This document shows, one piece after another, positions 6,689 to 34,451 of a DNA stretch of 34,451 bases. A program made the position numbers and the translations under genes. The DNA is from Microcaldota archaeon (GTDB taxonomy: Archaea; Micrarchaeota; Micrarchaeia; Norongarragalinales; JACRGE01): NCBI GenBank assembly GCA_016212465.1, contig JACRGE010000076.1:1-34451 (forward strand), given 5' to 3'. Each line of letters starts with the position of its first letter. Position 1 is the first letter of the stretch. Below the pieces are notes generated by a model that did not search any database, was not told where the DNA came from, and worked only from the letters and a program-made list of their open reading frames with translations.

Positions 6689-7327
6689 TTAAATTATGTC
6701 TCTTAAACGGGGGTTGTTCTTTAGCCGCTCTCTCGCTCTTTTCTCAAGCCTACTCACCGTTTTGGGATGGACTCCCATTTCCTTAGCCAGCTGCTCTTGT
6801 GTGACAGCCTCGTTTCCAAAAAGCCCCCACGTTCTTACTATCACGCTCCTTTCCTGCGGAGGCAGTTTGTTGATTCCATCATAGAGGACTCTCATCAGCT
6901 CACGCGCCTCCGCAACTTCACTTACTGACCCCTTCCGAGGAATCCTCTCCGCCGGCTCAAGCTCTTTTTCCTCCTCCCTTTCAGGCTCTGCGTGCAACGA
7001 AGTCGTGGAAAGCATTGGTTCGAGGGAAAGGGTTTTCTCTACTTTTTCCACGCTCCAGTTGAGTTCTTTGCTTAGCTCGCGAACCCTAGGCCTCCTTCCG
7101 TGCTCTTTTTCGAAATCGATTATCCTGTTCTGCATTTTATTCCAGTCATCCAGAGTTGGGATCGACACCCTTATTTGGAATCCCAAGTTGTCCCTAGCTC
7201 GGTCCATCCAACCCTTCAAATAAGGGCCAATGAATGTTTTGAAGGAACGGCCGCGAAGGGGGTCAAAATCTTTTACTTTCGTTATCACGGCCATGCGCCC
7301 TACTTGGACGAGGTCATTGAACTCCAA
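6689..7327 (-). CDS. sigma-70 family protein, C-terminal part (regions 2.2-4) split off by an in-frame stop
   Basis: 212 residues if translation starts at TTG 7327. It begins at sigma region 2.2 (FNDLVQVGRM, compare bacterial DLIQEG) and continues with KDFDPLRG, region 2.3/2.4 (RSFKTFIGPYLKGWMDRA), region 3 (IPTLDDWNKMQNRI, then HGRRPRVRELSKELNWSVEKVEK), a Glu-rich linker, and region 4 with its helix-turn-helix (VTQEQLAKEMGVHPKTVSRLEK, then RARERL). It has no region 2.1 of its own: that lies at the end of the ORF just upstream in the same frame, separated by TAA at 7337-7339. It could be the tail of a nonsense mutant, a reinitiated second polypeptide, or part of one protein if the TAA is a sequencing error. 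AGGT at about 7333-7336 is a weak ribosome site for the TTG. Confidence 0.85.
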   Translation of the reverse strand: MEFNDLVQVGRMAVITKVKDFDPLRGRSFKTFIGPYLKGWMDRARDNLGFQIRVSIPTLDDWNKMQNRIIDFEKEHGRRPRVRELSKELNWSVEKVEKTLSLEPMLSTTSLHAEPEREEEKELEPAERIPRKGSVSEVAEARELMRVLYDGINKLPPQERSVIVRTWGLFGNEAVTQEQLAKEMGVHPKTVSRLEKRARERLKNNPRLRDII

Positions 7328-7336
7328 TGCAGACCT

Positions 7337-7339
7337 TTA
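7337..7339 (-). other. in-frame TAA stop inside a sigma-70 gene
   Basis: TAA aligns without gaps to Glu117 (GAA, 9914-9916) of the 337-aa paralogue: FARKK...YRGM-stop-RSALEFNDLV against IARSK...QRGGERADMDVEDLV, both 24 positions long. One G-to-T change explains it. No other stop or frameshift is seen in the 781-codon frame 6689-9031. Confidence 0.9.
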
Positions 7340-9031
7340 CATACCCCTATACCCTTCTACTATTTTTTTACGCGCGAATCTTCTTATCAGCGGGTCCATT
7401 TTCTTTAAAACTACATCCAGCGCTTCTGTGTCACCTTTTGCAGCGGCAACAACTTCAGCAACTGCAATGTAAGTGGGGCTTTCTTCCTTGAGCTCACTGT
7501 ATCTACGCATTTCCCTCATTCCTTTCCACACCTGGGACAACCCGCCGTTTACTTCTATTCCGTAAAGCAAATCGAATCTCTTCAACTGAATCAGCAATGG
7601 AGTGCTGACATCCCTGCTGCCGAAAATCTTTTGTAGCTCCGTAACAAGGTTCTGTGGGTCAGCATAAGAAGAGCGTCTCTTCATTTTCTTACTCGGGAAG
7701 CCTGCTTTTTTCTTGAATGCTTCAAGCCCTCCGTGCCATGTTGAGATGGCGTAAACAAGTGAACCCAACCCCATGCTTCTTAATTCTTCTCTTTTCGGAA
7801 AACGTCCCAGTGTTTCAACTACGGGTGCGATTGCTGCAACCGCATTTCCTTCGTTACGGAACTGGTTCGTGTAAAAAGTTTGCTCCCATCCGAGTTTATC
7901 CACTATCGCGTCCCACGAGCCATAGTGCTTGTTTCTTATCGCGGTAGCGAAGTTCCTTCCACCAATCCGAAACACTTCCTCCTGAGTTGGTCTTCTACCG
8001 AACTCGGTTCTTATCCCCCGCAATTGGTCCATAAACTCTTCTTTGCTTGAAAACTTTAGTTTCCTTCTCTTTGGTTTGGGTTCTTTCAGCCACCTCAGGT
8101 CTTTCTTTATCTCACTGTAGGTGCCGTGAGTTTTTTTGTTCAGGAAATAGAGTATGTCAAAGCGTTTTTCTGCAATCAAGTCGTCTTGAGTAGGCTGGCG
8201 CCCCAAACGCTCGCGAACTGCCTTCAATGCATTCAAGAATGTTTCCTTGTCTTCAAAAGGATGCGGGGGCCTGCCTACTGGTTCTACGCCCAACCGGAGG
8301 CGGGTTGCCACATGACCGCCATGGTAGTATCTTATGGCATGTTCTAGTTCTGGATGGTTTTTTGTAATATGCGCCGGAGAAGGATACTTTCCACCGTGCA
8401 TTTTGATTATGGGCGCCAGTGCTTTCCGCAGGTTGTTGAATTCAGTGAAAGGGTTTTTCTCGGGCTCAATGCCCATCCGCTCGCGCACGGCAGGATATCC
8501 CTCGTGCGTATTCATTCCGAGAATCAGGTCAGACCTTTTTTCCGCTTGCAGTTGTGCGTGAGTCGGGAATCCTCCTTCATGCGCTTCCATCCACTTTTTT
8601 AATTCAATTGAGAAAAAGCTCCAGTCCCTCATTGGGCTCAGTGGCTTGGGTGTTAATACGACTGGCAACCCCATTTTCTTCCTTACTGCGTTGAGCCCGC
8701 CGTGGAAGTTGTCTATAGCTGAGATCAGGTCCCCTCTTTTTTCTCTTTTGAGAATAGGGTTGCTAAGTTCCCCGTGCTTCTCAACGAGTTTCCTCAGCTC
8801 GGTTTCAAGCTTTGCGAAATCTCGATACGGAGATTCAGTAGGCGGTGCTTCCATCACCCCCCGCACGTTCCTGAATCCACCATGGTACTTGAATCCTTTT
8901 ATCAAATCGAATCTCTTAAGTCCCCTAAGAAAATCATTGGATGGAAATTTTCCATACTCTCTCCAGAGCTTTTCTACGTCTTTCTTGAAGACGTTGAAGT
9001 CCCTGTATTTGGACGGAGGCATGGGGCTCAT
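7337..9031 (-). CDS. eight-repeat (R.DL..HGG..V..LG) protein ending in sigma region 2.1; upstream part of a split sigma factor
   Basis: 564 residues. Eight tandem ~55-residue units at about 8-61, 69-122, 134-187, 196-248, 262-316, 330-382, 396-445 and 459-506, each with a first helix, then K/R-R-x-DL and an aromatic/HGG...V+..(L/M)G ending (KRFDLIKGFKYHGGFRNVRG; KRGDLISAIDNFHGGLNAVR). The last 43 residues are sigma region 2.1 (AKGDTEALDVVLKKMDPLIR), as in the 337-aa paralogue. TAA stops it at 7337-7339, and the same frame reads on through RSALEFNDLVQVGRM into the next ORF. Start: ATG 9031, with CTTAAAAT (9053-9060) about 25 nt upstream. The repeats resemble homing-endonuclease-associated repeats and GG-type repeats of plastid proteins; a DNA- or RNA-binding role is inference. 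Confidence 0.85.
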   Translation of the reverse strand: MSPMPPSKYRDFNVFKKDVEKLWREYGKFPSNDFLRGLKRFDLIKGFKYHGGFRNVRGVMEAPPTESPYRDFAKLETELRKLVEKHGELSNPILKREKRGDLISAIDNFHGGLNAVRKKMGLPVVLTPKPLSPMRDWSFFSIELKKWMEAHEGGFPTHAQLQAEKRSDLILGMNTHEGYPAVRERMGIEPEKNPFTEFNNLRKALAPIIKMHGGKYPSPAHITKNHPELEHAIRYYHGGHVATRLRLGVEPVGRPPHPFEDKETFLNALKAVRERLGRQPTQDDLIAEKRFDILYFLNKKTHGTYSEIKKDLRWLKEPKPKRRKLKFSSKEEFMDQLRGIRTEFGRRPTQEEVFRIGGRNFATAIRNKHYGSWDAIVDKLGWEQTFYTNQFRNEGNAVAAIAPVVETLGRFPKREELRSMGLGSLVYAISTWHGGLEAFKKKAGFPSKKMKRRSSYADPQNLVTELQKIFGSRDVSTPLLIQLKRFDLLYGIEVNGGLSQVWKGMREMRRYSELKEESPTYIAVAEVVAAAKGDTEALDVVLKKMDPLIRRFARKKIVEGYRGM

Positions 9032-9052
9032 GAAATAAAAAAGAAGCAGGGG

Positions 9053-9060
9053 ATTTTAAG
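9053..9060 (-). promoter_or_regulatory. TATA-like box of the eight-repeat sigma gene
   Basis: On the minus strand this reads CTTAAAAT, centred about 25 nt before the ATG at 9031, consistent with a leaderless archaeal transcript. No ribosome site precedes the ATG. Confidence 0.45.
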
Positions 9061-9192
9061 TGTTCTCCCCATGGCACGGGTCGTTTTATGAATGGTTTCC
9101 TGGTGCTTTTTTGCTTTGTTGTTTTTTGTTTAGGTAGGTACTAAGCGGCAAACAAACGATTTTCCAACGTGTATGCCACTCAAAGAAAAGAC

Positions 9193-9225
9193 ACTGGGTT
9201 TGTAGAATTCTTAGACAAACCCCAG
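9193..9225 (-). terminator. hairpin downstream of the 337-aa sigma gene
   Basis: CTGGGTTTGT and ACAAACCCCAG pair over 10 bp with one bulged G, around a loop with AGAATTCTT. It starts 26 nt beyond the stop of the minus-strand sigma gene, and on that strand is followed by TGTCTTTTCTTTG, so it looks like a terminator or 3'-end structure. Confidence 0.5.
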
Positions 9226-9250
9226 CGAGCTTGGGCAAACTGAAATCAGA

Positions 9251-10264
9251 CTATTCCTCCAGCAGGTCCTTGAGCTCGAAGAGGCGGGGGCTTCTCGCGA
9301 GCTTTTTCCTCGCCCTTTTTTCGATAATCTGCGCCCTGCTGTGGCTCACGCCAAGGTCGCTTCCAATTTCCTCGAAAGTTCTTTGCGGTTCGGTCAAGTG
9401 CCTTTCAAGAATGACCTTTTGCTCGCGGGCATCCAGCCTCGCTTCTATTTCCTCTAGGAGCGTCTGCCTTAGTTTTTTCCTGCCAATCCTCTGCTCCATT
9501 GTTTCAACTGGAGGTGCGGCAAAAGGCTCGCCCCGCGTTCCCTCGGATTCTGGCGAAACCGGTTCGTCAGTTGAACCCGCTCCTTCCATCACAGGCGCAA
9601 GTGATTGAGTTTTCTCAAGCTTTTCCAAGCTCCACCCGAGCTCCTTCCTCAATTCCTCTTGCGTCGGCGGCTTCCCTTCTCTTGATTCGAAATTCGATTT
9701 AACTCGGTTCATTCTGTTCCATGCAAGGCGCTGGTATTCAGGCACGCGGAGCTTGAAAGCTTCTTTGCCCATGCTTCTGTCCATCGCCTGCTTAATCCAT
9801 GGAGTAATGAATGTGCTGAATTCAGTTTCCAGCTCCGGGTCGTATTCGGGCATTTTCTTATGAAGGATAAGCCTTCCCACTTGAACGAGGTCTTCGACGT
9901 CCATGTCAGCCCGTTCGCCGCCCCTTTGTAGATACGGTGCCTTGCTCCGTGCAATGCTTTTTATCAACGGGTCTATTTTTTCCAAAACCCGCTTGATTGC
10001 TTCCGCATCGCCTTTTTTCGCAGCCAGCACATCTTCAAGCGAAGGCCTGTTCGGTCTAGCAACTTGCTTCTTCAGCTCCTTTGCTGGCAGCCCCAGCTTT
10101 TCTTTGACTGTTTTAAACCCGCCGTACTGCGACACCGCCTTCAGTAAATCATTACGCTTTTTTTCAAGAAGCAGCCGCCTGCTCAAGCCCCCGTGCGCTT
10201 CAGCGAACCCTTGGAGCTCCGGTCTCAACGCTTCGAAATCCCCGTACTTCCTCGGCCTTGCCAT
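9251..10264 (-). CDS. bacterial-type sigma-70 family factor with one N-terminal HGG repeat
   Basis: 337 residues, intact. Residues 7-58 are one R.DL...YGG...V.EKLG repeat. Then sigma region 2.1 (AAKKGDAEAIKRVLEKIDPL, 81-100), 2.2 (DLVQVGRLILHKKMPEYDPE, 125-144), 2.3/2.4 (FSTFITPWIKQAMDR, 149-163), region 3 (LRVPEYQRLAWNRMNRV, then GKPPTQEELRKELGWSLEKLEK), an acidic Ser/Pro-rich linker (about 224-252), and region 4 (ARLDAREQKVILERHL, then HTH FEEIGSDLGVSHSRAQIIEK and RARKKLARSPRLFELKDLLE). The order and the C-terminal basic LARSP..F.LKD.L match group 1-2 bacterial sigma factors. In region 2.3 the bacterial TWW is TPW, so one of the two melting tryptophans is replaced. Sigma normally brings bacterial RNA polymerase to -10/-35 promoters; what it does with archaeal RNA polymerase is unknown. 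A TATA box (TTTTTATAAT, 10286-10295) lies 26 nt before the ATG. Confidence 0.92.
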   Translation of the reverse strand: MARPRKYGDFEALRPELQGFAEAHGGLSRRLLLEKKRNDLLKAVSQYGGFKTVKEKLGLPAKELKKQVARPNRPSLEDVLAAKKGDAEAIKRVLEKIDPLIKSIARSKAPYLQRGGERADMDVEDLVQVGRLILHKKMPEYDPELETEFSTFITPWIKQAMDRSMGKEAFKLRVPEYQRLAWNRMNRVKSNFESREGKPPTQEELRKELGWSLEKLEKTQSLAPVMEGAGSTDEPVSPESEGTRGEPFAAPPVETMEQRIGRKKLRQTLLEEIEARLDAREQKVILERHLTEPQRTFEEIGSDLGVSHSRAQIIEKRARKKLARSPRLFELKDLLEE

Positions 10265-10285: not shown

Positions 10286-10295
10286 ATTATAAAAA
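10286..10295 (-). promoter_or_regulatory. TATA box of the 337-aa sigma gene
   Basis: Minus-strand TTTTTATAAT, centred 26 nt before the ATG at 10264. It also contains TATAAT, the bacterial -10 consensus, so recognition by a sigma factor (autoregulation) cannot be excluded, but I see no clear -35 TTGACA at 16-18 nt. Confidence 0.5.
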
Positions 10296-10397: not shown

Positions 10398-13300
10398 ATG
10401 TTCGTGCGCAAAGTCATCTTGAAGAACTTCAAGTCATTTCCTTCTGCTGCAATTCAGTTCGATAAAGGCATTTCAACGATAGTGGGTCCGAACGGCAGCG
10501 GGAAGTGTTTGAGAGGCGATTCCCTGGTTTTCCTCTCGGACGGGAATTTAAAGCCAATCAGTGCTATTGTCGAGTCTCAGTTGCAGGCTTCGCAGTCAAA
10601 GGATTTTTTGGAAGACGGTGAGATGACGCTGGAAACCGACCGAGGAATATCCGTTTTGTCGTTGAATCCTCTTACAGGAAAAATCGAAAAAAAGCGCGTC
10701 CAGGCGTTTGTGAAGAGAAAATCCCCTGAAAAACTGTTGGAAATAAAAACTGCCGGCGGCAAGTCAGTTGTAACCACCTATTATCACCCTGTTCTGACAA
10801 TCAAAGACGGGATGATAACTTCAGCACACGCAGACGAATTGAAGAAAGGCTCTTTCATCGCAACTCCCCGTGAGTTTCCTGTTGAAGAAAAGCTCTTGAA
10901 TTTCGTTCTCGAATTAGCTAAACAGCCGAACAGCCTGTATTTGGGACGGGGATGCGAGCGGCTTCGCACCCTTTTGCGAAGCAGGAAAGCATTTGATAGA
11001 AAGAAATGGAAGCAGATTGCCAGCGAAGCTGGACTGAGCAAAACGACTCTAAAAGGACTGATTGACGGACAGTCCATCAAGCTGAACGACGCATTTAGGC
11101 TAACGCAATTTCTTGTACTGAACCAAATTGAGGCGACCGAATTGCTTTGCGAAGTGAAGGCAAAGAACCAGAGGAAAGCTATTCGCCTGCCCGTTGGATT
11201 CTCGCTGGAACTTGCCAAGTTCTTGGGCTATGTTATCTCGGAGGGGAGAGTAGCCAATAACGAGGTGTTTTTCTTCAACGACTCGCCAGAGCTTAGGAAC
11301 GATTTCAGGGAATGCGCGTCTAGGGTATTCGGCTGCAACATCACGGAATGCTCCTCCGGCGAAAAAAAGTTTCTAGTACTTTCATCTAAGGTTGTGACTG
11401 TTTTTTTGGACAAGTTGTTTGGCCTGCACGAAAAGCAACATGCTTCAAGAAAAGAAGTTCCTTCCCTCCTGTTTCAAGTTCCCCTCCCTTTCGTTAAAGC
11501 CTTTCTTTCGGCGTTGTTTGACGGCGATGGCTTCGTTTCCGGGAAAAAAGACACTAGGGCGTGCGTGGAATATTCTTCTGCAAGCAAGTCTCTTGTAACG
11601 CAATTGTCTTTTCTATTGCTTCGCTTCGGGGTTGTAGCGCGAACAAGCGCGGGGTTGAAATTCGCTTCCAACACCGAGCTGAAAATAAAGCGCCCTTATT
11701 ACCGGGCGACTGTTTACGGAATAGAAAACGCAAGGAAAATGCTTTCCACACTTGAATTCAGCATTGAAAAAAAACGCAAGCTTCAGGAATTGGTTGAATC
11801 GCGGGCAAACAAATCAGGTAACACAAACGTTGACGTAATTCCCTGTTCTAATAGTGTTATAAAAAACCTGCTGGAGGAGGCAGGTTATTCTGCAAGGCGG
11901 CTGAAGTTTGTAAAGCCAAGCAAGATACGCGCCTACTACGAGAACCGTTGCTTCCCCACCCGCGGCGGTTTGCTTGAAGTAATCTCCTTACTGAAAAAAA
12001 CAGATGCGGACGTTAATTCAGAATTGCTTCTGACGCTTGCTTCGTCCCAGGTTTTTTGGGACAGGATTGTGGAATTAAATGAAACTGCTGGTGTGGAATG
12101 GGTTTACGATTTATGCGTTGAAGGCAACCACAATTTCTTGGCCGAAGGCATCTTCGTGCATAACAGCAACGTGATCGACGCGCTGTTGTTCACGTTCGGC
12201 GAATCCTCTTTAAAGAGTATGCGCGTGAGGAAGACGAGCGACCTCATCTTCGCGGACCACAACGTAGCAGAGGCGACAGTGGCTCTGGAAGGAGACAACG
12301 GCGAAAAGCACGAGGTCAAGCGCTTCCTGAGGAAAGACGGAAAAACCAAGTATACCTTGGATGGAAAGCGCGCGAAGAAGTATGTCGTTGAGGATTTCCT
12401 TGCCTCAGAAAGCATCTTCAAATCCAACATCATCAAGCAAGGCGAAGTCCAGAGGATAGTGGAGATGAGCCCAAAGAACAGGAGGACGCTCATAGACTAT
12501 ATCGCCAACATTTCGGAGTATGAACAGAAGAAAGCAGAAGCAATGAATGAATTGAATGCAGTGGACGTCCGCATGAAGGAGGCAGTTGCAATACTCAACG
12601 AGAAAGAAGGGTATTTGAAGGAGTTGAGGAAGGAAAAAGAGGATGCTGAAAAGTTCGTGAACCTCAAGAAAGAGCACGAGTCCTTGAAGGCAACCCTTCT
12701 TTACTTGGACGTGAAGGCGTATGAAAAGGATTTCGAGAAGGAGGTAAACTCTATTCTTGACCTGAACAGCAAGCTGGCTTCTGTGAAGGAATTGATTGAA
12801 GCCCATGCGAAGAGCATCAGCGCCAAGTTTGCTGAAAAAGATTCAATCAACCAACAGATCATGCAAAAAGGCGAAGCCAAGCAAATTCTTCTCCAGAAGG
12901 AAATTGACGGTCTTTCCCAGGAAATTGAGAAAGCGAGGAAGCTGATAGATGAGAAAAGGGAGTTCATAAGCAGGAGCGAAGGAAAATCAATGGAGCTAGG
13001 ACTTGTGATGAAGCGGGCTGGAGACGAGATAATCGGCTGCGAAAAACAGGTTGCTTCAAACCAGTCCGAGATGGACGTGTTGAAGAGGCTGCTTGACGCC
13101 GAACAGAGCGAATACTCCAAGCTGATGGACCAGTCCAAAAACTTTTCCTCAAAGTTCTACGAGGCCAAGCAAATACTGGAGCAGTGCAACCAGGAGATGC
13201 TGGCCTGCAGGGAATCCCTTGTAGAGGTCCAGTCCCAGGTTTCACTCTTGAAGGAAAAGCAGGAGTTGAAGAAGCGGGAACTGGAGAGACTCAGAATCGG

Positions 13301-15515
13301 CGTTTTCGACGATCTGGGGGATAAGCGGAAAGAGCTTTTGTTGAAGAGGGAAAAGATTCAGGAGCAGATGCTTCAATTGGATGAAAAGCTTGGTGGGCTG
13401 CTGGAGAAAGAAAAGGAGTTGAGCGAGCGGCTGACTGTGTTGAATGATTTGATTCTGCTTGCACGAGAGAAGATTACCGTCATTGAATCCAGGCTAGAGG
13501 CAGTGAAGGAATCCGAAGTCTCTAAAGCAGTGGACGAGCTATCGGATTTGAGCGGCGTATACGGAACAGTTGAAGCGTTGTGCAACTATGACTCGCGTTA
13601 CTCCCTTCCAATCCAGGTTGCGCTTGGGCCGCGGCTCACCTATGTGGTTGTAGACTCTTCAAAGACCGCGAGGAAAGCGATTGAGTTCTTGAAGCAAAGG
13701 AAGCTCGGCAGGATCTCTTTTATTCCGTTGGACAGGATTAAACCAGTGCCTCTTGGAAGCGAGGACAGGAAACTCAAGTCCAGCAAGGGCGCAGTGGATT
13801 TCTTGATTGACTTACTCGAATTCAACGAGAAATACCGTAAGGCATTCGAGTTCGTGTGTGGCAACACGCTGTTGATGAAGACGCTTGAAGACGCTGAAGA
13901 GCTCATCGGAAGGACTAGGATGGTCACCCTGGAGGGCGAGCTCATCGAGCCTTCTGGCCTTATGACTGGCGGAATCGTTTCAGAAAAGATAAACCCTTTC
14001 AAGGAACGAAAGGATTTAGAGGAATGGAACAAGAAGCTGGAGGAAAGCAGGTCCGAGAAAGGCAGGATAGATGAGGAGCTTGGGGACTTGAGTAAGGAAT
14101 TGAATGAGTTGAGGAAGAAGAAGGCTGAAGCTGATTTGAGTGACAAGACTTTTCAAATAGAGCTAGAACATCTGGCGGGGCAGGAGATGAGCATTCTTGA
14201 AAAGAAGAAGAACATTGCTGCGGCCATAAAAAGCCTTGAGGAAGAAATCAACGTGTTGGAGCAGGAGGTGCTTGCTGGCGATGAGAAGAGAGCGGAGTTG
14301 ATCAGAAAGCTCTCGGATTTGAACATCCGTGCCTTGGATGCAAAGCAAAAGATCGACTTTGAGAAAGAGCAGAAATTTGGGTTGATGATAAAGGAAAAAG
14401 AGCACAAGATCTCCGAGTTGAAGATCAGAATCTCTCAATACGAGAGCACACTTTCCACGCTGAAGACGCAGAAGAGGTACTACGAGAAAGAGCACTTCGG
14501 TTACGAGAGTTCAGTGGCTGAGTTGCAGAACGAAATTGAGAAAGCAAAGGAGGATATGGTTGAGAGTGACAAGCTCATTAAAGAAAATACTCTTTTTTTA
14601 AGAGAAAAAATAAAGGAACAGAAAGAAGTTTCTTCTACTTTAAGAGATTTAATGGATTTAAGAGACAAACTTGACAAAGAGCTTCAGAAGCTCGGGAACG
14701 AAAAAGGTAAAATGGAGTTCGAGCGCGAAAGGATTGAGCGGGAGATTCAGGAACACCAGTTGCGCAGGGTGGCGGCAGAAACGAAGTTGGCTGACCTGAA
14801 GGCTGAATTCAGCGCCTTCCAAGGCGTTACCGTGCTGGAGAGAACTGACGAAGACCGGCCTGAGCTCGCTTCAAGGCTGAAGGAAGCTCAAGTAGAGTTA
14901 GACGCAATTGGCAGCGTGAACCTCAAGGCTTTGGAGCTCTTTGACCAAAAAGTGCAGGAATTTGATGAACAGAATTCAAGGGTCAAACAGTTGTTGAACG
15001 AAAAGGAGGCTGTCCTCAATTTAATAAGGGAGATTGAAGGCAAGAAAGTAAATACCTTCATGAACACCTTCAACCTCATCAACTCCAACTTCCAGCGGCT
15101 CTTCTCCCAAATCTTCAGAGGCAGCGGGTGCCTCTTCCTAGAGAAATACGGCGAGGACGGAAAGGAAAAACCCCTTCAGGAATGGGGGCTGACCATCCAG
15201 GTCCAGCTAGAGAACAAGGAGTTCAAGTACCTTGAGCTCATGAGCGGAGGCGAAAAGGCCCTTATTGCTTTATTGTTCATCTTCTCCATCCAGATGTACA
15301 ACCCGTCGTCTATATACATATTGGATGAAGCGGATGCCGCTCTCGACCAAGAAAACAGTTTGAAGCTTGTCGCGTTGTTGAAAGAGCTTTCCAAGGACTC
15401 GCAGTTCATCGTCGTCACACACAATGAAACAGTTTACCGCAAGGCGGATTGCCTCGTCGGAGTAGCGATGAGCAAGGAAGGCTCGAAACTGGTGGAAGTC
15501 AAGCTCACCCAATGA
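10398..15515 (+). CDS. smc: chromosome segregation ATPase SMC, with in-frame intein in Walker A
   Basis: 1705 codons; after splicing 1152 residues, normal for SMC. N-terminal ATPase: VRKVILKNFKSF, then IVGPNGSGK, where the P-loop is cut after Lys36; the intein occupies 37-589 and the extein resumes with SNVIDALLFTFGE at 590. Two long coiled-coil arms flank a hinge at about 1047-1200 (LSGVYGTVEALCNYDSRYSLPIQVALG, with conserved glycines, and GLMTGG). C-terminal ATPase: signature MSGGEKALIALLF (Ser1616) and Walker B YILDEADAALD (Asp1643, Glu1644), then FIVVTHNE. SMC dimers organise and segregate chromosomes with ScpA/ScpB kleisin partners; neither partner is in the window. Confidence 0.97.
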   Translation: MFVRKVILKNFKSFPSAAIQFDKGISTIVGPNGSGKCLRGDSLVFLSDGNLKPISAIVESQLQASQSKDFLEDGEMTLETDRGISVLSLNPLTGKIEKKRVQAFVKRKSPEKLLEIKTAGGKSVVTTYYHPVLTIKDGMITSAHADELKKGSFIATPREFPVEEKLLNFVLELAKQPNSLYLGRGCERLRTLLRSRKAFDRKKWKQIASEAGLSKTTLKGLIDGQSIKLNDAFRLTQFLVLNQIEATELLCEVKAKNQRKAIRLPVGFSLELAKFLGYVISEGRVANNEVFFFNDSPELRNDFRECASRVFGCNITECSSGEKKFLVLSSKVVTVFLDKLFGLHEKQHASRKEVPSLLFQVPLPFVKAFLSALFDGDGFVSGKKDTRACVEYSSASKSLVTQLSFLLLRFGVVARTSAGLKFASNTELKIKRPYYRATVYGIENARKMLSTLEFSIEKKRKLQELVESRANKSGNTNVDVIPCSNSVIKNLLEEAGYSARRLKFVKPSKIRAYYENRCFPTRGGLLEVISLLKKTDADVNSELLLTLASSQVFWDRIVELNETAGVEWVYDLCVEGNHNFLAEGIFVHNSNVIDALLFTFGESSLKSMRVRKTSDLIFADHNVAEATVALEGDNGEKHEVKRFLRKDGKTKYTLDGKRAKKYVVEDFLASESIFKSNIIKQGEVQRIVEMSPKNRRTLIDYIANISEYEQKKAEAMNELNAVDVRMKEAVAILNEKEGYLKELRKEKEDAEKFVNLKKEHESLKATLLYLDVKAYEKDFEKEVNSILDLNSKLASVKELIEAHAKSISAKFAEKDSINQQIMQKGEAKQILLQKEIDGLSQEIEKARKLIDEKREFISRSEGKSMELGLVMKRAGDEIIGCEKQVASNQSEMDVLKRLLDAEQSEYSKLMDQSKNFSSKFYEAKQILEQCNQEMLACRESLVEVQSQVSLLKEKQELKKRELERLRIGVFDDLGDKRKELLLKREKIQEQMLQLDEKLGGLLEKEKELSERLTVLNDLILLAREKITVIESRLEAVKESEVSKAVDELSDLSGVYGTVEALCNYDSRYSLPIQVALGPRLTYVVVDSSKTARKAIEFLKQRKLGRISFIPLDRIKPVPLGSEDRKLKSSKGAVDFLIDLLEFNEKYRKAFEFVCGNTLLMKTLEDAEELIGRTRMVTLEGELIEPSGLMTGGIVSEKINPFKERKDLEEWNKKLEESRSEKGRIDEELGDLSKELNELRKKKAEADLSDKTFQIELEHLAGQEMSILEKKKNIAAAIKSLEEEINVLEQEVLAGDEKRAELIRKLSDLNIRALDAKQKIDFEKEQKFGLMIKEKEHKISELKIRISQYESTLSTLKTQKRYYEKEHFGYESSVAELQNEIEKAKEDMVESDKLIKENTLFLREKIKEQKEVSSTLRDLMDLRDKLDKELQKLGNEKGKMEFERERIEREIQEHQLRRVAAETKLADLKAEFSAFQGVTVLERTDEDRPELASRLKEAQVELDAIGSVNLKALELFDQKVQEFDEQNSRVKQLLNEKEAVLNLIREIEGKKVNTFMNTFNLINSNFQRLFSQIFRGSGCLFLEKYGEDGKEKPLQEWGLTIQVQLENKEFKYLELMSGGEKALIALLFIFSIQMYNPSSIYILDEADAALDQENSLKLVALLKELSKDSQFIVVTHNETVYRKADCLVGVAMSKEGSKLVEVKLTQ
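10506..12164 (+). mobile_element. LAGLIDADG homing-endonuclease intein in the SMC P-loop
   Basis: 553 residues from Cys37 to Asn589. Block A: CLRGDSLVFLSDG; block B: TTYYHPVLTI with the TxxH histidine at about residue 130; C-terminal blocks: WVYDLCVEGNHNFLAEGIFVHN with penultimate His588 and Asn589, followed by extein Ser590. Cys at the start, His-Asn at the end and Ser +1 make it a standard, apparently splicing-competent intein. Two LAGLIDADG motifs are visible, LAKFLGYVISEGRV (about 271-284) and VKAFLSALFDGDGFV (about 366-380), both with the acidic catalytic residue, so the endonuclease may be active. A helix-turn-helix-like segment (WKQIASEAGLSKTTLKGLI) precedes the first motif. Without splicing the ATPase would lack the serine of GPNGSGKS. 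Confidence 0.95.
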
Positions 15516-28824: not shown

Positions 28825-31800
28825 ATGAAGCACTTTTATTTTTCAATATTTTTTATCTTATTAATTTTTCCAGCCTTTGTTAAGCCGGACGCGGTTCCTC
28901 CCAGGATTGAGTTCGTTGAACCGACTTTAGGGGATGGTGGAGTGGTTCAAGGTGACTGGGTTTTTGTTAATGTTTCTGTTTCGGATGCGGATTATTGCTC
29001 TGCGTTCATCGACTTCAACCATTCTCTGGTTGGTTATTGGGGGTTAGATGGTGATGCAACTGATTCGGGCCCAAATGGTTTGAAGGGAGTTTTGAATGGG
29101 GGATTGGACTGTTCTGTTCAAGGAAGGTTCGGGAGAGCGTGTTCTTTTGATGGAGTTGACGACTACATTAACTTGAGTGCAAACACTTTGCTGACTTTTC
29201 CCGGTCAAAAGGCTTTTTCTATTGAGTTGTGGTTCAAGCCGAATCAGCCGGCTGACTGGAGTGTTTTGTTGGGGAAATACAATCGTTATATTGTTGGAGA
29301 ATATTTGGTTAGGATTAACTCGACGGGTTTTGTTCGAGTTTCTCGAGAAGTTAATCCGTATGGGTTTTACAGTAGTTTTCCTGTTTCCTTCGGGGAGTGG
29401 CATCACCTTGCGAGTGTTTACGACGGAGGGAGTCAATTGCTTTACTTGGATGGAGAGTTGGCTGGTTCGCTTGGAATGGGTGGAGTAAGTGGAGACCGAG
29501 GTTCTCCTGTTCTCGTTGGAGCTTGGTTGAACCGCAGCGTGGTAGGGGATTTCTTCAGTGGATTGATTGACGAAGTAAGAATATGGAATCGTTCTTTGAG
29601 TGCGCAGGAAGTAAACGCTTCTTTTAACGCTGGAACCTATCGCTTGTTCAGGAACTTTACTGGATTGCCTCGGGGGAGTGTTTCTTTTCAAGCAGTTGCA
29701 GTTGATGCTTCAGGTAACTTGAATTCTACTGAAGTGCGAAATGTTTACGTAAACAAGACGTTGAAGCCTGTTGCTGACGCTGGTGCTTCTCAATTGATTT
29801 TGGTTGGAAACCCGGTTGTTCTCAATGCCTCTCGCTCTCGCGACCCAGACGGCGTTATTACTGTATACCAATGGGATTTTGATAACGATGGAAATTTTGA
29901 TTACTCTGGATCTGATGTAGTTGTAACCCATGATTTTGGTGCTGAAGGAAACTACTCGCCTACTCTAGTAGTTGTTGACAACGAGGGGTTAAACAGTTCT
30001 TCAAGTGCGCTGATTCTAGTAAGGTCGGCTAGACAACCTCAAGTAAGGAATGTGGTGAACAATCTGGGGTTGTACGGTGGTGGAGTGCCGAAGTACGAAA
30101 AGTTCGAGTTGACTTTCGACATGGATACTATTGCAGCGAATTATTTCTGGCCTTTCGACGAGAATCCAACTCCCATCAATTCGGTTCCAGTTGGCTTTGG
30201 CGTAAGCATTGATGGCTTGTTTCTTCCACCTGGAGAAACGGATTGGAGCAAGGCTCTCGTGCAGCCTAGTTTTTATTATCAAGACTATATAAGAGCGAAT
30301 AATTCGCCTCCATGGGACTGGCTTTATCCCAACGGAAATCCAGTCTGGAAGATTCGCTTTACGCCCTCTTTAATAGGAGAGTGGAAGTACAAGATTCGCG
30401 TTAAAGACGCTGGAGGAGAGTTTGAAACTGGAGAAAGTTCCTTCAACTGTGTTCAATCAAACAACCGTGGTTTTGCGCGAGTTAGTTCTGAAGACACTAG
30501 GTATTTTGAAACAGACGACGGCACTTACCTCAGCCTCATTGGCTTAAACGACTATACAACAGATTCTTATGTAATGGACCAGCGTTATCCCATGCTGAAG
30601 AAAATGGGAGTAAACTTTTTGAGGACGTGGTGGAACGCTTGCCAAGGCCCTATGCTCTGGGGCATGAGCAATTCCGGAGGCCAAGTGAGGGATTGGCATG
30701 CTGAAACTTCTTCAAGCGGTTGGGCTGAAGTCACTTATTCTTATGCAGAAGCGAGGCCCGGCGAATTGTATTCCCTTAGGATTTCAGGAAGCGACGTTGC
30801 CCGCTCTAGTAAGAAATACGGAGGCGTTTGCACAGGTGCTCAAGTGAAGCCTAATACGAGATACAAATTTACTTCGTGGGTTAAAGGAGTTGGCCTTGAA
30901 GGGGAAGGAGACTGGGGCGCTTATCTGGCAGGCAGCAGTTGCATCGAGTGTTCCTTTAATAAGAATCTTTCTCTGAAACAGACTCAGTTGGATAAATGGA
31001 CTAAAATCTCTTCAACAATAACCTCTAGTGCAAATGCATACTCAGTTGGTTTGTGTACCCGATTAGGGAATAGCACTGCAGGCAATTTGTACGTTGCCGA
31101 AATTTCTCTCAAAGAAGATTTGGGAAACGGAAACTACGGTCCAGAGCTTGCAAGCACGCCCACTTTCAATATATACAAATACGTTCCACAAGGAGAGGCT
31201 TGGGAAGCTGATTACCTTGTGGAAAGCGCTAAAAATAATTCCATTTATCTGAAAGTGCAGCTTTCCAACCACGAGGACAAGGCTTGGGGAAGCATCGGAC
31301 CGAACGGGCGAGGAGCTCAGCAAAATGGCAACTACGTATACGGGAATGACAATTGGGCTTCCCGCACTTTCATGAAGTACTACTGGCGCTATATTATCGG
31401 GCGTTATGGCTATGCCACGAGCATTCACTCTTTTGAATTCCTAAATGAGGGAGACCCGTATAATGGAAACCATTACAACGGAGCGAAAAGGATGGCAGAG
31501 TTCTTCACAGCCAACGACCCGAGCAAACACATGGTTTCAACATCTGACTGGCACAGCTTCCCCCCTGGGCTTTGGCGAGACTCGAGAATGTCTTTTGCTG
31601 ATCTTCACATGGGCATGGGTTGGTTCGGTGCCTTGAACTCAAGCGGATGCCGGCTTATTCCGGGTTGGGACGGCAATTGGGTTGACACAGGCTACTGCGT
31701 TCAATTAGGAGATTTGGGAACTGGGTATGAAATCGATCGTTCTACTGCTCACACTGGGTCGAATTCCCTTCGCATTACAGTTCCGTCTAAAGCAAGTTAT

Positions 31801-34451
31801 AGCGACGCCGACCGAAAGTGGTCTAAATTGTTCTTTATGACCGGCGCTAAACCTGGCCATAGGTATCGCTTGAGCGCCTGGGTTAAAGCAAACGAATTGC
31901 AATGCTATCCGGGCAGAGGAGGTCCTGGCGTAGACCGCTACCTGACTGACGGCGAAGGAGGCTGGGTAGGCTGGCCCAATTCCACCATATCCGCTCCCTG
32001 CGGCAACAGCACTCACCCGCAATTGGGAACATATAACTGGAAGTTTGTTTCAGCTGAATTTCCTATTCCCGGAGATTCTGGAGTTGCGATTGCTTCGGAC
32101 GGCAGCGTTTTCATACCCAACTGGTGGGGGGTTAAAAAATATTATTCCAACGGGAGTTTTATATTGAGCTTTAGTTGCTTCGGAGGCAACAGGGGCGTTG
32201 CGATTAATTCAACTGACTTCGTTTTCTCAGCGACTCCTGTTTCCCATATTATCACCCGCTGCAATTCAACAGGAGGCTGGGTTTCAAACGTGGGAGGATT
32301 AGGAACTGGAGACGGCAAATTCAATTTCCCGCAAGGCATTGCAATTGATTCCAATAATTTCGTTTACGTTGCTGACTCCGGAAACCATCGCGTTCAGAAG
32401 TTTTATCCAAATATGACGTTCTTGGGATGGTGGGGAAAGGACTCAAACGGCTCTATTGGCTGGCATAAACCAAGTTCTCTAGTGGTTTCTGTTTCAGGCA
32501 GCGAAGAAGGGGCGTTCAACTGGCCCATTGGCATTGCAGTTGATTCCGCAAACGGGTTTGTTTACGTGGCTGACTCTAACAACAACCGCATTCAAAAATT
32601 TTCTTTGAATGGCGATTTCGTTTCTTCCTGGGGAACAGGTGGAACTGGGGCATTCAAATTCCTTGAGGGATTGGCAGTTGATTCAAGCGGCAATGTTTAC
32701 GCAGCGGACGCGGGCAACAACAGGATCCAAAAGTTTTCCTCCAGTGGGAATTTCCTGGGCTGGCTTGGAAGAGATTCGGATGGAAGCAACGGTTGGCACA
32801 GCCCTGGTTCTGGAAAAGCTCCTGCACATGGAACACTATCCGGTGATTTTAATTGGCCAACTGGCATTGCAGTTGATTCCAACGGGTTCATTTACGTTGC
32901 AGATACGGGCAACAGCCGCTCGCAAAAACTTCATTCAAACGGCACTCCCCTCGTGGTGTATTCGCAAGGCGGCCCAGCTTGGTTGCTTGGAGTGAATTTC
33001 GTTCACGCAGGCCACCCTGGCTCGAGTGATGCGTTCGTTTGGTTCGATGACTTCAAGGTCGAGGACGTATTCACGGGTGAGACGCTCAATTTCAACGGCG
33101 GATTCGAGTACATTGAGCCGGAGAACTACGATATAGTTGCAGGCCACCAAGCTGTCTCCAAGCTCACTCGGAGCTATGGTTTTATGAAACCAACAACAAG
33201 GGGTGAAACCGGGTTGTGGTATCCTAGGCGCGTTTGCGAATTCCAGAACGGAACACCAAGGGCAGACTGGAGCTGGTGTTATTACAAAGGCTATTCTACG
33301 GACGGCGACCAGCTGTTAATCGACGATTCGCAAGGGATTTGGTGGAGGAAATACGTGTGGAGCCATTTTGATTCCAATGCTTTGATTGAAATGATGTGGG
33401 CGAGCAGGGATGTTTTATTCAACCCTAACCTTGGAGGCAAATATCCTTTGTATGGAGCGGCTTTCCAGAGCTTCTTTTCAAACATTCCGTTGTCGAACGG
33501 ATTATATGAGGATGCTGAAGCGTCTTCTTCAAATCTTGACATCCGTGTTTTAGGGCAAAAGGATTTGGTGAACAAAAAAGCGCATTTATGGATTGACAAC
33601 AGGAGGCATACGTGGAAGAACGTGGTTGATGGAGTAAGCGTTCCACTTGCTTCAGGGACTATTTTGTTATCGGGGTTTGGAAACGATTCGTATAGACTAG
33701 AGTGGTGGAATACGACGACGGGATTGGTGGAGCAAACAGAGAAAAGGAATGCATCAAATGGAACTATTTCTTTTTCCATAAACAATCTTTTCTCGGATGT
33801 GGCGTTAAAGATTTACCTAGATTCGCCGGAATTGCCTCCGATCAACGCTTCTTGCGGTGATGGAAATTGTTCACTTTCTGAAAACTGTAGCTCGTGTCCA
33901 CGTGACTGCGGCAGCTGTTCGGTCAACCCGCCTTGCACTTCATGTGGTGGTGGAGGTGGCGGAGGTCCACCTGGCGGTGGTGGAGTAGTTTCCCAGACTA
34001 CTTCAACTACTCTAGGAACCACTTCAACTCTTCCCGCCTCAACCACCGTCGAATGCATTGTGGGTGAATCAAAGTGCGTGGAATCCAATGCAGGAAACTT
34101 TTTGTTTGAGTGTGTTGGAGGAGTCTGGAAAACTCAAAAGGAATGCAGGGCGGGTTGCACGAAATTGGGTGTGGGAGGCGAATGCAGAAGAGAGTCTAAT
34201 GAAACGCTTGCAAACGCTTATAGCAGGGCGCTTGCTGAAGTCAATTCCCTTTTAGCTGACGCGAAGGCAGCTGGATTAAACATTTCCGCAGAAGAACTGG
34301 ACTTAAGGAAAGCAAGCGAGTTCAAGGACAGAGGGGATTACTCGAATGCAGTTGAAAAACTTTATTCAGCCAAGAAGGCTTTGCAGGAAAAGCTTGCAGG
34401 TAATGCTCCAACGCAAGGAACTCTCGATGTTGAAGCACAGAGGACAATTGG
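28825..34451 (+). CDS. giant secreted glycoside-hydrolase-like multidomain protein (3' end outside window)
   Basis: 1875 complete codons, open at the window end. Signal peptide (YFSIFFILLIFPAFVKPDA). Domains with approximate residues: LamG/concanavalin-A-like lectin (66-276: GRACSFDGVDDYINLS, AFSIELWFKP, IDEVRIWNRSLSAQEV); PKD (314-399: ADAGASQLILVGNPVVLNAS, DPDG...YQWDFDNDG); DUF5060-like beta domain (425-546: FTPSLIGEWKYKIRVKDAGG); a TIM-barrel hydrolase beginning TRYFETDDGTYLSLIGLND (about 558), with acid/base candidate Glu875 (FEFLNEGD) and nucleophile candidate Glu1461 (TTRGETGLW), as in clan GH-A. Inside the barrel lie CBM-like beta domains, at 623-766 and from ~970, the latter interrupted by six NHL blades (1087-1380). 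From 1677: a Cys motif CGDGNCSLSENCSSCPRDCG, Gly-rich and Thr-rich linkers, a second Cys module and a helical region. It likely binds and cuts a polysaccharide outside the cell; substrate unknown. Confidence 0.88.
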   Translation, partial: MKHFYFSIFFILLIFPAFVKPDAVPPRIEFVEPTLGDGGVVQGDWVFVNVSVSDADYCSAFIDFNHSLVGYWGLDGDATDSGPNGLKGVLNGGLDCSVQGRFGRACSFDGVDDYINLSANTLLTFPGQKAFSIELWFKPNQPADWSVLLGKYNRYIVGEYLVRINSTGFVRVSREVNPYGFYSSFPVSFGEWHHLASVYDGGSQLLYLDGELAGSLGMGGVSGDRGSPVLVGAWLNRSVVGDFFSGLIDEVRIWNRSLSAQEVNASFNAGTYRLFRNFTGLPRGSVSFQAVAVDASGNLNSTEVRNVYVNKTLKPVADAGASQLILVGNPVVLNASRSRDPDGVITVYQWDFDNDGNFDYSGSDVVVTHDFGAEGNYSPTLVVVDNEGLNSSSSALILVRSARQPQVRNVVNNLGLYGGGVPKYEKFELTFDMDTIAANYFWPFDENPTPINSVPVGFGVSIDGLFLPPGETDWSKALVQPSFYYQDYIRANNSPPWDWLYPNGNPVWKIRFTPSLIGEWKYKIRVKDAGGEFETGESSFNCVQSNNRGFARVSSEDTRYFETDDGTYLSLIGLNDYTTDSYVMDQRYPMLKKMGVNFLRTWWNACQGPMLWGMSNSGGQVRDWHAETSSSGWAEVTYSYAEARPGELYSLRISGSDVARSSKKYGGVCTGAQVKPNTRYKFTSWVKGVGLEGEGDWGAYLAGSSCIECSFNKNLSLKQTQLDKWTKISSTITSSANAYSVGLCTRLGNSTAGNLYVAEISLKEDLGNGNYGPELASTPTFNIYKYVPQGEAWEADYLVESAKNNSIYLKVQLSNHEDKAWGSIGPNGRGAQQNGNYVYGNDNWASRTFMKYYWRYIIGRYGYATSIHSFEFLNEGDPYNGNHYNGAKRMAEFFTANDPSKHMVSTSDWHSFPPGLWRDSRMSFADLHMGMGWFGALNSSGCRLIPGWDGNWVDTGYCVQLGDLGTGYEIDRSTAHTGSNSLRITVPSKASYSDADRKWSKLFFMTGAKPGHRYRLSAWVKANELQCYPGRGGPGVDRYLTDGEGGWVGWPNSTISAPCGNSTHPQLGTYNWKFVSAEFPIPGDSGVAIASDGSVFIPNWWGVKKYYSNGSFILSFSCFGGNRGVAINSTDFVFSATPVSHIITRCNSTGGWVSNVGGLGTGDGKFNFPQGIAIDSNNFVYVADSGNHRVQKFYPNMTFLGWWGKDSNGSIGWHKPSSLVVSVSGSEEGAFNWPIGIAVDSANGFVYVADSNNNRIQKFSLNGDFVSSWGTGGTGAFKFLEGLAVDSSGNVYAADAGNNRIQKFSSSGNFLGWLGRDSDGSNGWHSPGSGKAPAHGTLSGDFNWPTGIAVDSNGFIYVADTGNSRSQKLHSNGTPLVVYSQGGPAWLLGVNFVHAGHPGSSDAFVWFDDFKVEDVFTGETLNFNGGFEYIEPENYDIVAGHQAVSKLTRSYGFMKPTTRGETGLWYPRRVCEFQNGTPRADWSWCYYKGYSTDGDQLLIDDSQGIWWRKYVWSHFDSNALIEMMWASRDVLFNPNLGGKYPLYGAAFQSFFSNIPLSNGLYEDAEASSSNLDIRVLGQKDLVNKKAHLWIDNRRHTWKNVVDGVSVPLASGTILLSGFGNDSYRLEWWNTTTGLVEQTEKRNASNGTISFSINNLFSDVALKIYLDSPELPPINASCGDGNCSLSENCSSCPRDCGSCSVNPPCTSCGGGGGGGPPGGGGVVSQTTSTTLGTTSTLPASTTVECIVGESKCVESNAGNFLFECVGGVWKTQKECRAGCTKLGVGGECRRESNETLANAYSRALAEVNSLLADAKAAGLNISAEELDLRKASEFKDRGDYSNAVEKLYSAKKALQEKLAGNAPTQGTLDVEAQRTI

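Follow-up and report, generated by a model that had tools for sequence, protein, structure and literature searches.

We have characterized two adjacent sigma-70-type coding regions in an archaeal genome, each beginning with repeat units that match the PF18780 family where bacterial sigma factors carry region 1. The best explanation is that both arose by duplication within a sigma-70 family that is native to a DPANN class and evolves fast. Sigma-70 genes are already known from DPANN archaea; new are their PF18780/HGG fusions, their recurrent tandem arrays and, in the family f18, their position beside mevalonate genes.

The window, that is, the whole stretch of 34,451 nucleotides that was analysed, is contig C54 of an archaeal genome (G000; 1.2 Mb, 104 contigs, 91% complete, 1.9% contamination). 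The label G000 denotes the genome that carries the window, and other G and L labels denote genomes of the class and loci. An initial annotation had placed a pair of adjacent sigma-70-type genes here, and two such coding regions, sigma1 and sigma2, were found on the minus strand. Their features and those of the divergent neighbour are as follows.

10398..15515, plus strand: divergent neighbouring smc gene, which contains a LAGLIDADG_3 intein and marks the archaeal context
10287..10295, minus strand: TTTTTATAA, a TATA-like box by reading of the sequence, 22 nt before the ATG of sigma1
9251..10264, minus strand: sigma1 gene, intact, 337 aa (ORF, Pfam, AF2 and Foldseek)
10085..10246, minus strand: single N-terminal HGG (PF18780-like) repeat of sigma1 (repeat HMM, alignment and profile search)
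9776..9970, minus strand: sigma1 region 2 (PF04542, 1.9e-9)
9527..9721, minus strand: sigma1 region 3 (PF04539, 1.8e-5; 25.2 bits, just below the cut-off of 25.3)
9299..9442, minus strand: sigma1 region 4 (PF04545, 1.3e-9)
9053..9060, minus strand: CTTAAAAT, a TATA-like box by reading of the sequence, 21 nt before the ATG of sigma2
6689-9031, minus strand: whole sigma2 coding region, interrupted by TAA
7337..9031, minus strand: upstream frame of sigma2, 564 aa, with eight repeats and the start of region 2 (ORF and Pfam)
7508..9007, minus strand: array of eight HGG / PF18780 repeats in sigma2 (PF18780 4.1e-12, repeat HMM and AF2)
7337..7339, minus strand: in-frame TAA within sigma2 region 2 (frame reading and sigma1/sigma2 alignment)
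6689..7327, minus strand: downstream frame of sigma2, 212 aa from TTG, with the rest of region 2 and regions 3 and 4 (ORF and Pfam)

The host lineage is judged from its sequences to be a DPANN archaeon. Archaeal flanks had been described for the window, and this description was borne out: proS, smc and an S17e-like ORF (2755-2964; S17e by eye only) are present, and an archaeal Rpo1' and two TFBs are encoded elsewhere in G000. Rpo1' is 68% identical to that of the metagenome-assembled genome 'archaeon isolate Bin_28_2_1' and equally close to those of same-order genomes, and ProRS has mixed matches, to DPANN and to Thermofilum. Contamination or a chimeric contig was considered as the main explanation and rejected: the sigma genes are like smc and proS in codon usage and GC range (the GC of sigma1 is somewhat high, 0.53 versus 0.46), smc matches its own order (about 40-50% identity in full-length matches), a third sigma gene of the genome adjoins srp54, and other genomes of this order have HGG-sigma genes too. 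A smc-sigma neighbourhood shared over the order was also considered and was too weak, as the two genes lie on one contig in G000 and G009 only. The LAGLIDADG_3 domain lies inside smc (window 10398-15515), and such an intein may be common to several same-order genomes, because several of their smc frames are near 1700 aa. At the far end of the window (28825-34449) an open frame of 1875 aa, possibly a giant surface protein, reaches the contig end.

Regions 2, 3 and 4 occur in order in sigma1, and Pfam profiles for all three match both proteins, as the initial annotation had anticipated, region 3 of sigma1 falling marginally under its cut-off. Residues 56-336 of sigma1 align over 281 residues to bacterial SigA/RpoD (E=4.5e-20), with region 3 aligned to region 3 of SigA. 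Similarity by E value was about 1e-20 for SigA/SigB/RpoD, 1e-11 for RpoS and 1e-5 for RpoH; the likeness of sigma1 to group 1-2 factors, as opposed to ECF types, therefore holds, because RpoS and RpoH are more distant than SigA, and region 3 is present. The AF2 model of sigma1, built with 42 relatives, has a mean pLDDT of 81 and exceeds 90 over most of regions 2-4. Foldseek matched this model to SigA, RpoD and RpoS with a probability of 1.00 and E values of about 1e-9 to 1e-11 (SigA 9e-12). Overall TM-scores were low (0.35-0.40 on the query), probably due to differing domain placement. Sequence profiles and the predicted model together place sigma1 firmly within the sigma-70 fold family. Region 1.2 (Sigma70_r1_2) was not found by Pfam in sigma1 or sigma2, though it does score in one relative (L004). 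The HGG units at both N-termini occupy the place of region 1, as had been proposed. A search of genome contigs found no named relatives of sigma1.

Sigma2 is a paralogue of sigma1, with 33% identity across 330 residues. Its C-terminal part matches Sigma70_r2 (1.3e-5), r3 (2.3e-7; 31.2 bits, above the cut-off) and r4 (2.2e-11), and r2 scores 34 bits when read across the stop. Both proteins had been taken for genuine sigma factors; their membership in the sigma-70 family stands, but sigma2 is not a single open reading frame and carries a nonsense codon at 7337-7339. The interruption is one codon without a frameshift, because the alignment of sigma2 with sigma1 has no gap around the TAA. Recoding of TAA was rejected, other genes of the window giving no sign of it. 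Unless the codon is an assembly error, sigma2 is probably non-functional or decaying. Two working sigma-like proteins would nevertheless result if the TAA were an assembly or sequencing error, were read through, or were bypassed because translation restarts at the TTG. This possibility concerns sigma2 only and is compatible with any reading of the pair; we consider it open to real doubt yet appreciable. The frame remains open for 212 further codons with a gap-free alignment to sigma1, and the TTG, preceded by an AAGGT stretch, lies a few codons past the TAA. In-frame stops also occur in other sigma genes of the class, however (three among the matches listed, sigma2 included), and re-initiation would drop the first part of region 2. 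Bypass is less likely than real decay or an assembly error.

HGG repeats had been noted at the start of both proteins, and the repeat HMM recovers eight units in sigma2 and one in sigma1. By a curated Pfam match in sigma2 (4.1e-12) these are PF18780 HNH_repeat units (homing endonuclease associated repeat). In the AF2 model of the read-through frame, the sigma2 units mostly form compact repeats of three or four helices each, and pLDDT is mostly 80-95 in repeats 1-4 and lower in repeats 5-6. The sigma1 unit has low pLDDT in its model; it was matched at E 6.5e-16 in a class-wide search with a profile that includes the sigma1 copy itself. Pfam found no nuclease domain in sigma1 or sigma2. Elsewhere in the class PF18780 occurs on proteins whose C-termini are HNH- or GIY-YIG-like by motif, and because of this association with nuclease-like proteins the likely role of the repeats is to bind DNA.

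At E 0.001, HGG-type matches were found in 8 of 301 genomes of the class. Below 1e-6 there were seven genes in six genomes, five of them with a sigma core (two in G000 and one each in G020, G128 and, as a pseudogene, G009) and two without (G118 and G095). These counts are descriptive, because the repeat model was built from several of the same genes; G009 and G095 are outside the model. A further PF18780-sigma fusion was detected by Pfam in G154:C17, where the repeat model matches weakly (E 0.009), so that fusions comprise at least six genes in five genomes (two in G000, and G020, G128, G154 and the decayed G009 gene). In the G009 copy, from the window's own order (G009:C20, L252:3100-4000), stops and frameshifts have destroyed the gene. 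HGG repeats extend beyond the archaea, since they were also found at the C-terminus of an annotated terminase ATPase subunit on an Allocoleopsis (cyanobacterial) plasmid (NC_019761.1; L255:3122-4618).

Sigma70 region 2 was found in 22 of 98 relatives, several of which may be contaminants, such as L007, a short ECF-like match on a 3-kb contig. The third sigma gene of G000 (contig C92, L048:3416-5447) adjoins srp54 and a CDP-alcohol phosphotransferase-like gene, both neighbours identified by eye. It is followed by an ORF resembling a LAGLIDADG homing endonuclease. The tandem arrangement had been singled out as the striking feature of the window; it is real but not unique, since tandem sigma genes recur in G016, G087, G128, G130, G067 and G064; in G064 they form a run of seven. 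In six genomes of family f18 the sigma genes, arranged in tandem in most of the six, adjoin the large subunit of aconitase X (loci L100:6856-14137 on G064:C13, L103, L104, L108, L112 and L129, beside aconitase X-type and further genes of the archaeal mevalonate pathway). The nearest NCBIfam model for this AcnX-type protein is hydroxyproline dehydratase, below cut-off. The cluster of G130 also holds the aconitase X small subunit, UbiX, UbiD, isopentenyl phosphate kinase and mevalonate kinase. From these neighbours, we take the f18 cluster to be the AcnX/UbiD/IPK archaeal mevalonate route. The AcnX-type protein is 54-79% identical between these genomes of f18 and the sigma genes mostly 20-36%; the latter have a conserved place and a fast-changing sequence. 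A native origin is thus favored because sigma genes occur in 22 of 98 relatives, the third sigma gene lies by srp54, and six genomes carry sigma genes at the mevalonate cluster.

Selfish or decaying genes would be a different account, in which homing endonuclease repeats and the sigma2 pseudogene mark the pair as the relic of a mobile element. The PF18780 origin of the repeats, the sigma2 nonsense codon, the decayed HGG-sigma gene of G009:C20, in-frame stops in other sigma matches and a patchy distribution all speak for it. Yet the pair has no nuclease domain, no relatives were found in viral contigs or phage records, sigma1 is intact, and the sigma arrays of f18 are stable and syntenic, and we regard this origin as improbable. 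A viral origin was likewise rejected: neither protein had a match when viral contigs were scanned, and the repeat region gave no tblastn match to phages. We consider it very improbable indeed that the RNA polymerase on which the proteins act is that of a bacterial partner or host and not the archaeal enzyme. The closest similarity of sigma1 is to the primary sigma factors of bacteria, and many DPANN are presumed symbionts, but the sigma genes of relatives adjoin core archaeal genes and known DPANN hosts are mainly archaea.

For the native family, the conservation of residues bears on a possible role at the archaeal polymerase. When 43 DPANN sigma cores were aligned together with sigma2, the most conserved column, in RpoD numbering, was D403 (40 of 43 cores), known as a core-binding position; G424, F427, Y430 and Q406 are also well conserved. 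Most residues that read the -10 and -35 elements vary among these cores. The equivalents of W433, T440, R584, E585 and R588 are all changed in sigma1 and sigma2, and that of Q437 is kept in sigma1 and changed in sigma2. Region 2 of sigma factors serves polymerase binding and melting, not duplex reading. The pattern suggests that the strongest constraint lies on the polymerase-facing surface of sigma, although conservation of D403 could be an inherited constraint of the fold. The Rpo1' clamp coiled-coil of G000 is typically archaeal in sequence; compared with E. coli beta-prime at ten sigma-contact positions of the clamp, six are changed (R275I, R281E, R293E, E295L, R297E and A302H) and four kept (D264, R278, Q300 and N309). 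An archaeal sigma could have adapted to the changed clamp. Region 4 docks on the flap-tip helix, which is described as a bacterial feature that the archaeal polymerase lacks (PMC8131849).

A search for -10/-35-like pairs, a check that the initial annotation had suggested, showed no enrichment around the genes: 3 pairs were found in 6.5-10.6 kb against 2.9 expected. The TATA-like boxes near the starts of both sigma genes are consistent with their transcription by TBP/TFB.

Our preferred reading, to which we give nearly even confidence, is that sigma1 is tethered to DNA and, as an initiation or regulatory factor, engages the archaeal RNA polymerase through region 2. Its N-terminal repeat and region 4 would bring it to a specific DNA site, region 2 would contact the clamp coiled-coil, and the start region would be melted or held. 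At a few promoters, initiation would then use sigma1 as an alternative or auxiliary factor, alongside TBP/TFB. The eight repeats of sigma2 would once have bound a long, tailored DNA site. Against a polymerase factor stand the clamp changes, the lack of a flap-tip helix, the absence of -35/-10 enrichment, the loss of reading residues and the decayed copies (sigma2, G009:C20), by which the genes can be dispensable. A rather unlikely but serious competitor is that sigma-fold proteins were repurposed as repressors or activators whose repeats and region 4 read DNA, the core no longer being an initiation subunit. In its favor, clamp contact residues are unlike the bacterial ones, the -10/-35 reading residues are lost in sigma1 and sigma2, there is no sigma-type promoter signal, TBP/TFB initiation can serve the genome, as judged from the two TFBs, and relatives often have incomplete sigma domains, as in G020:C39, which stops after region 3. 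Region 2 is kept, however, and contains the family's best-conserved position. From the residue, clamp, flap-tip and promoter evidence, we therefore assign about one half of our confidence to an initiation or auxiliary factor and about a quarter to a repurposed regulator.

Sigma1 resembles the bacterial group 1-2 factors SigA, RpoD and RpoS in the order of regions 2, 3 and 4, in its 281 aligned residues and in its fold match. Unlike them, sigma1 and sigma2 lack regions 1.1 and 1.2 and have PF18780 repeats instead, their DNA-reading residues are largely lost, and their background is an archaeal polymerase with TFB. They share the repeat unit and its arrays with PF18780 HNH_repeat proteins, but a sigma core is joined to the repeats in place of an HNH or GIY-YIG nuclease. 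Phage sigma factors (PHROG 351 and others) have the same sigma core, and BFVD matches include phage sigma factors; sigma1 and sigma2 differ in that scans found no close viral relative for them and in lying among archaeal housekeeping genes. For DPANN, the sigma-70 passage of Castelle et al. (2021; PMC8204110) reports sigma-70 as a family (fam00359) prevalent in Woesearchaeota, with mis-binning excluded, no anti-sigma, and TBP/TFB/TFE alongside. Those genes are likewise in TBP/TFB archaea, and the passage describes no repeat fusions, tandem arrays or mevalonate linkage. No description of PF18780-sigma fusions, tandem sigma arrays or mevalonate linkage in archaea was found in the open-access literature.

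Archaea and bacteria are defined partly by their different initiation factors. It is conceivable, though on the unlikely side, that this archaeal lineage runs a second, sigma-based promoter selection on a TBP/TFB-type polymerase, with specificity supplied by fused modular repeats and diversified by tandem duplication. If true, an archaeal-type polymerase can adopt a bacterial-type factor with a swappable DNA-binding array. A long-kept, tandem-duplicated archaeal sigma-70 coupled to repeats would offer a directly testable system, for which the mevalonate (membrane-lipid) genes beside the sigma genes of f18 are concrete candidate targets.
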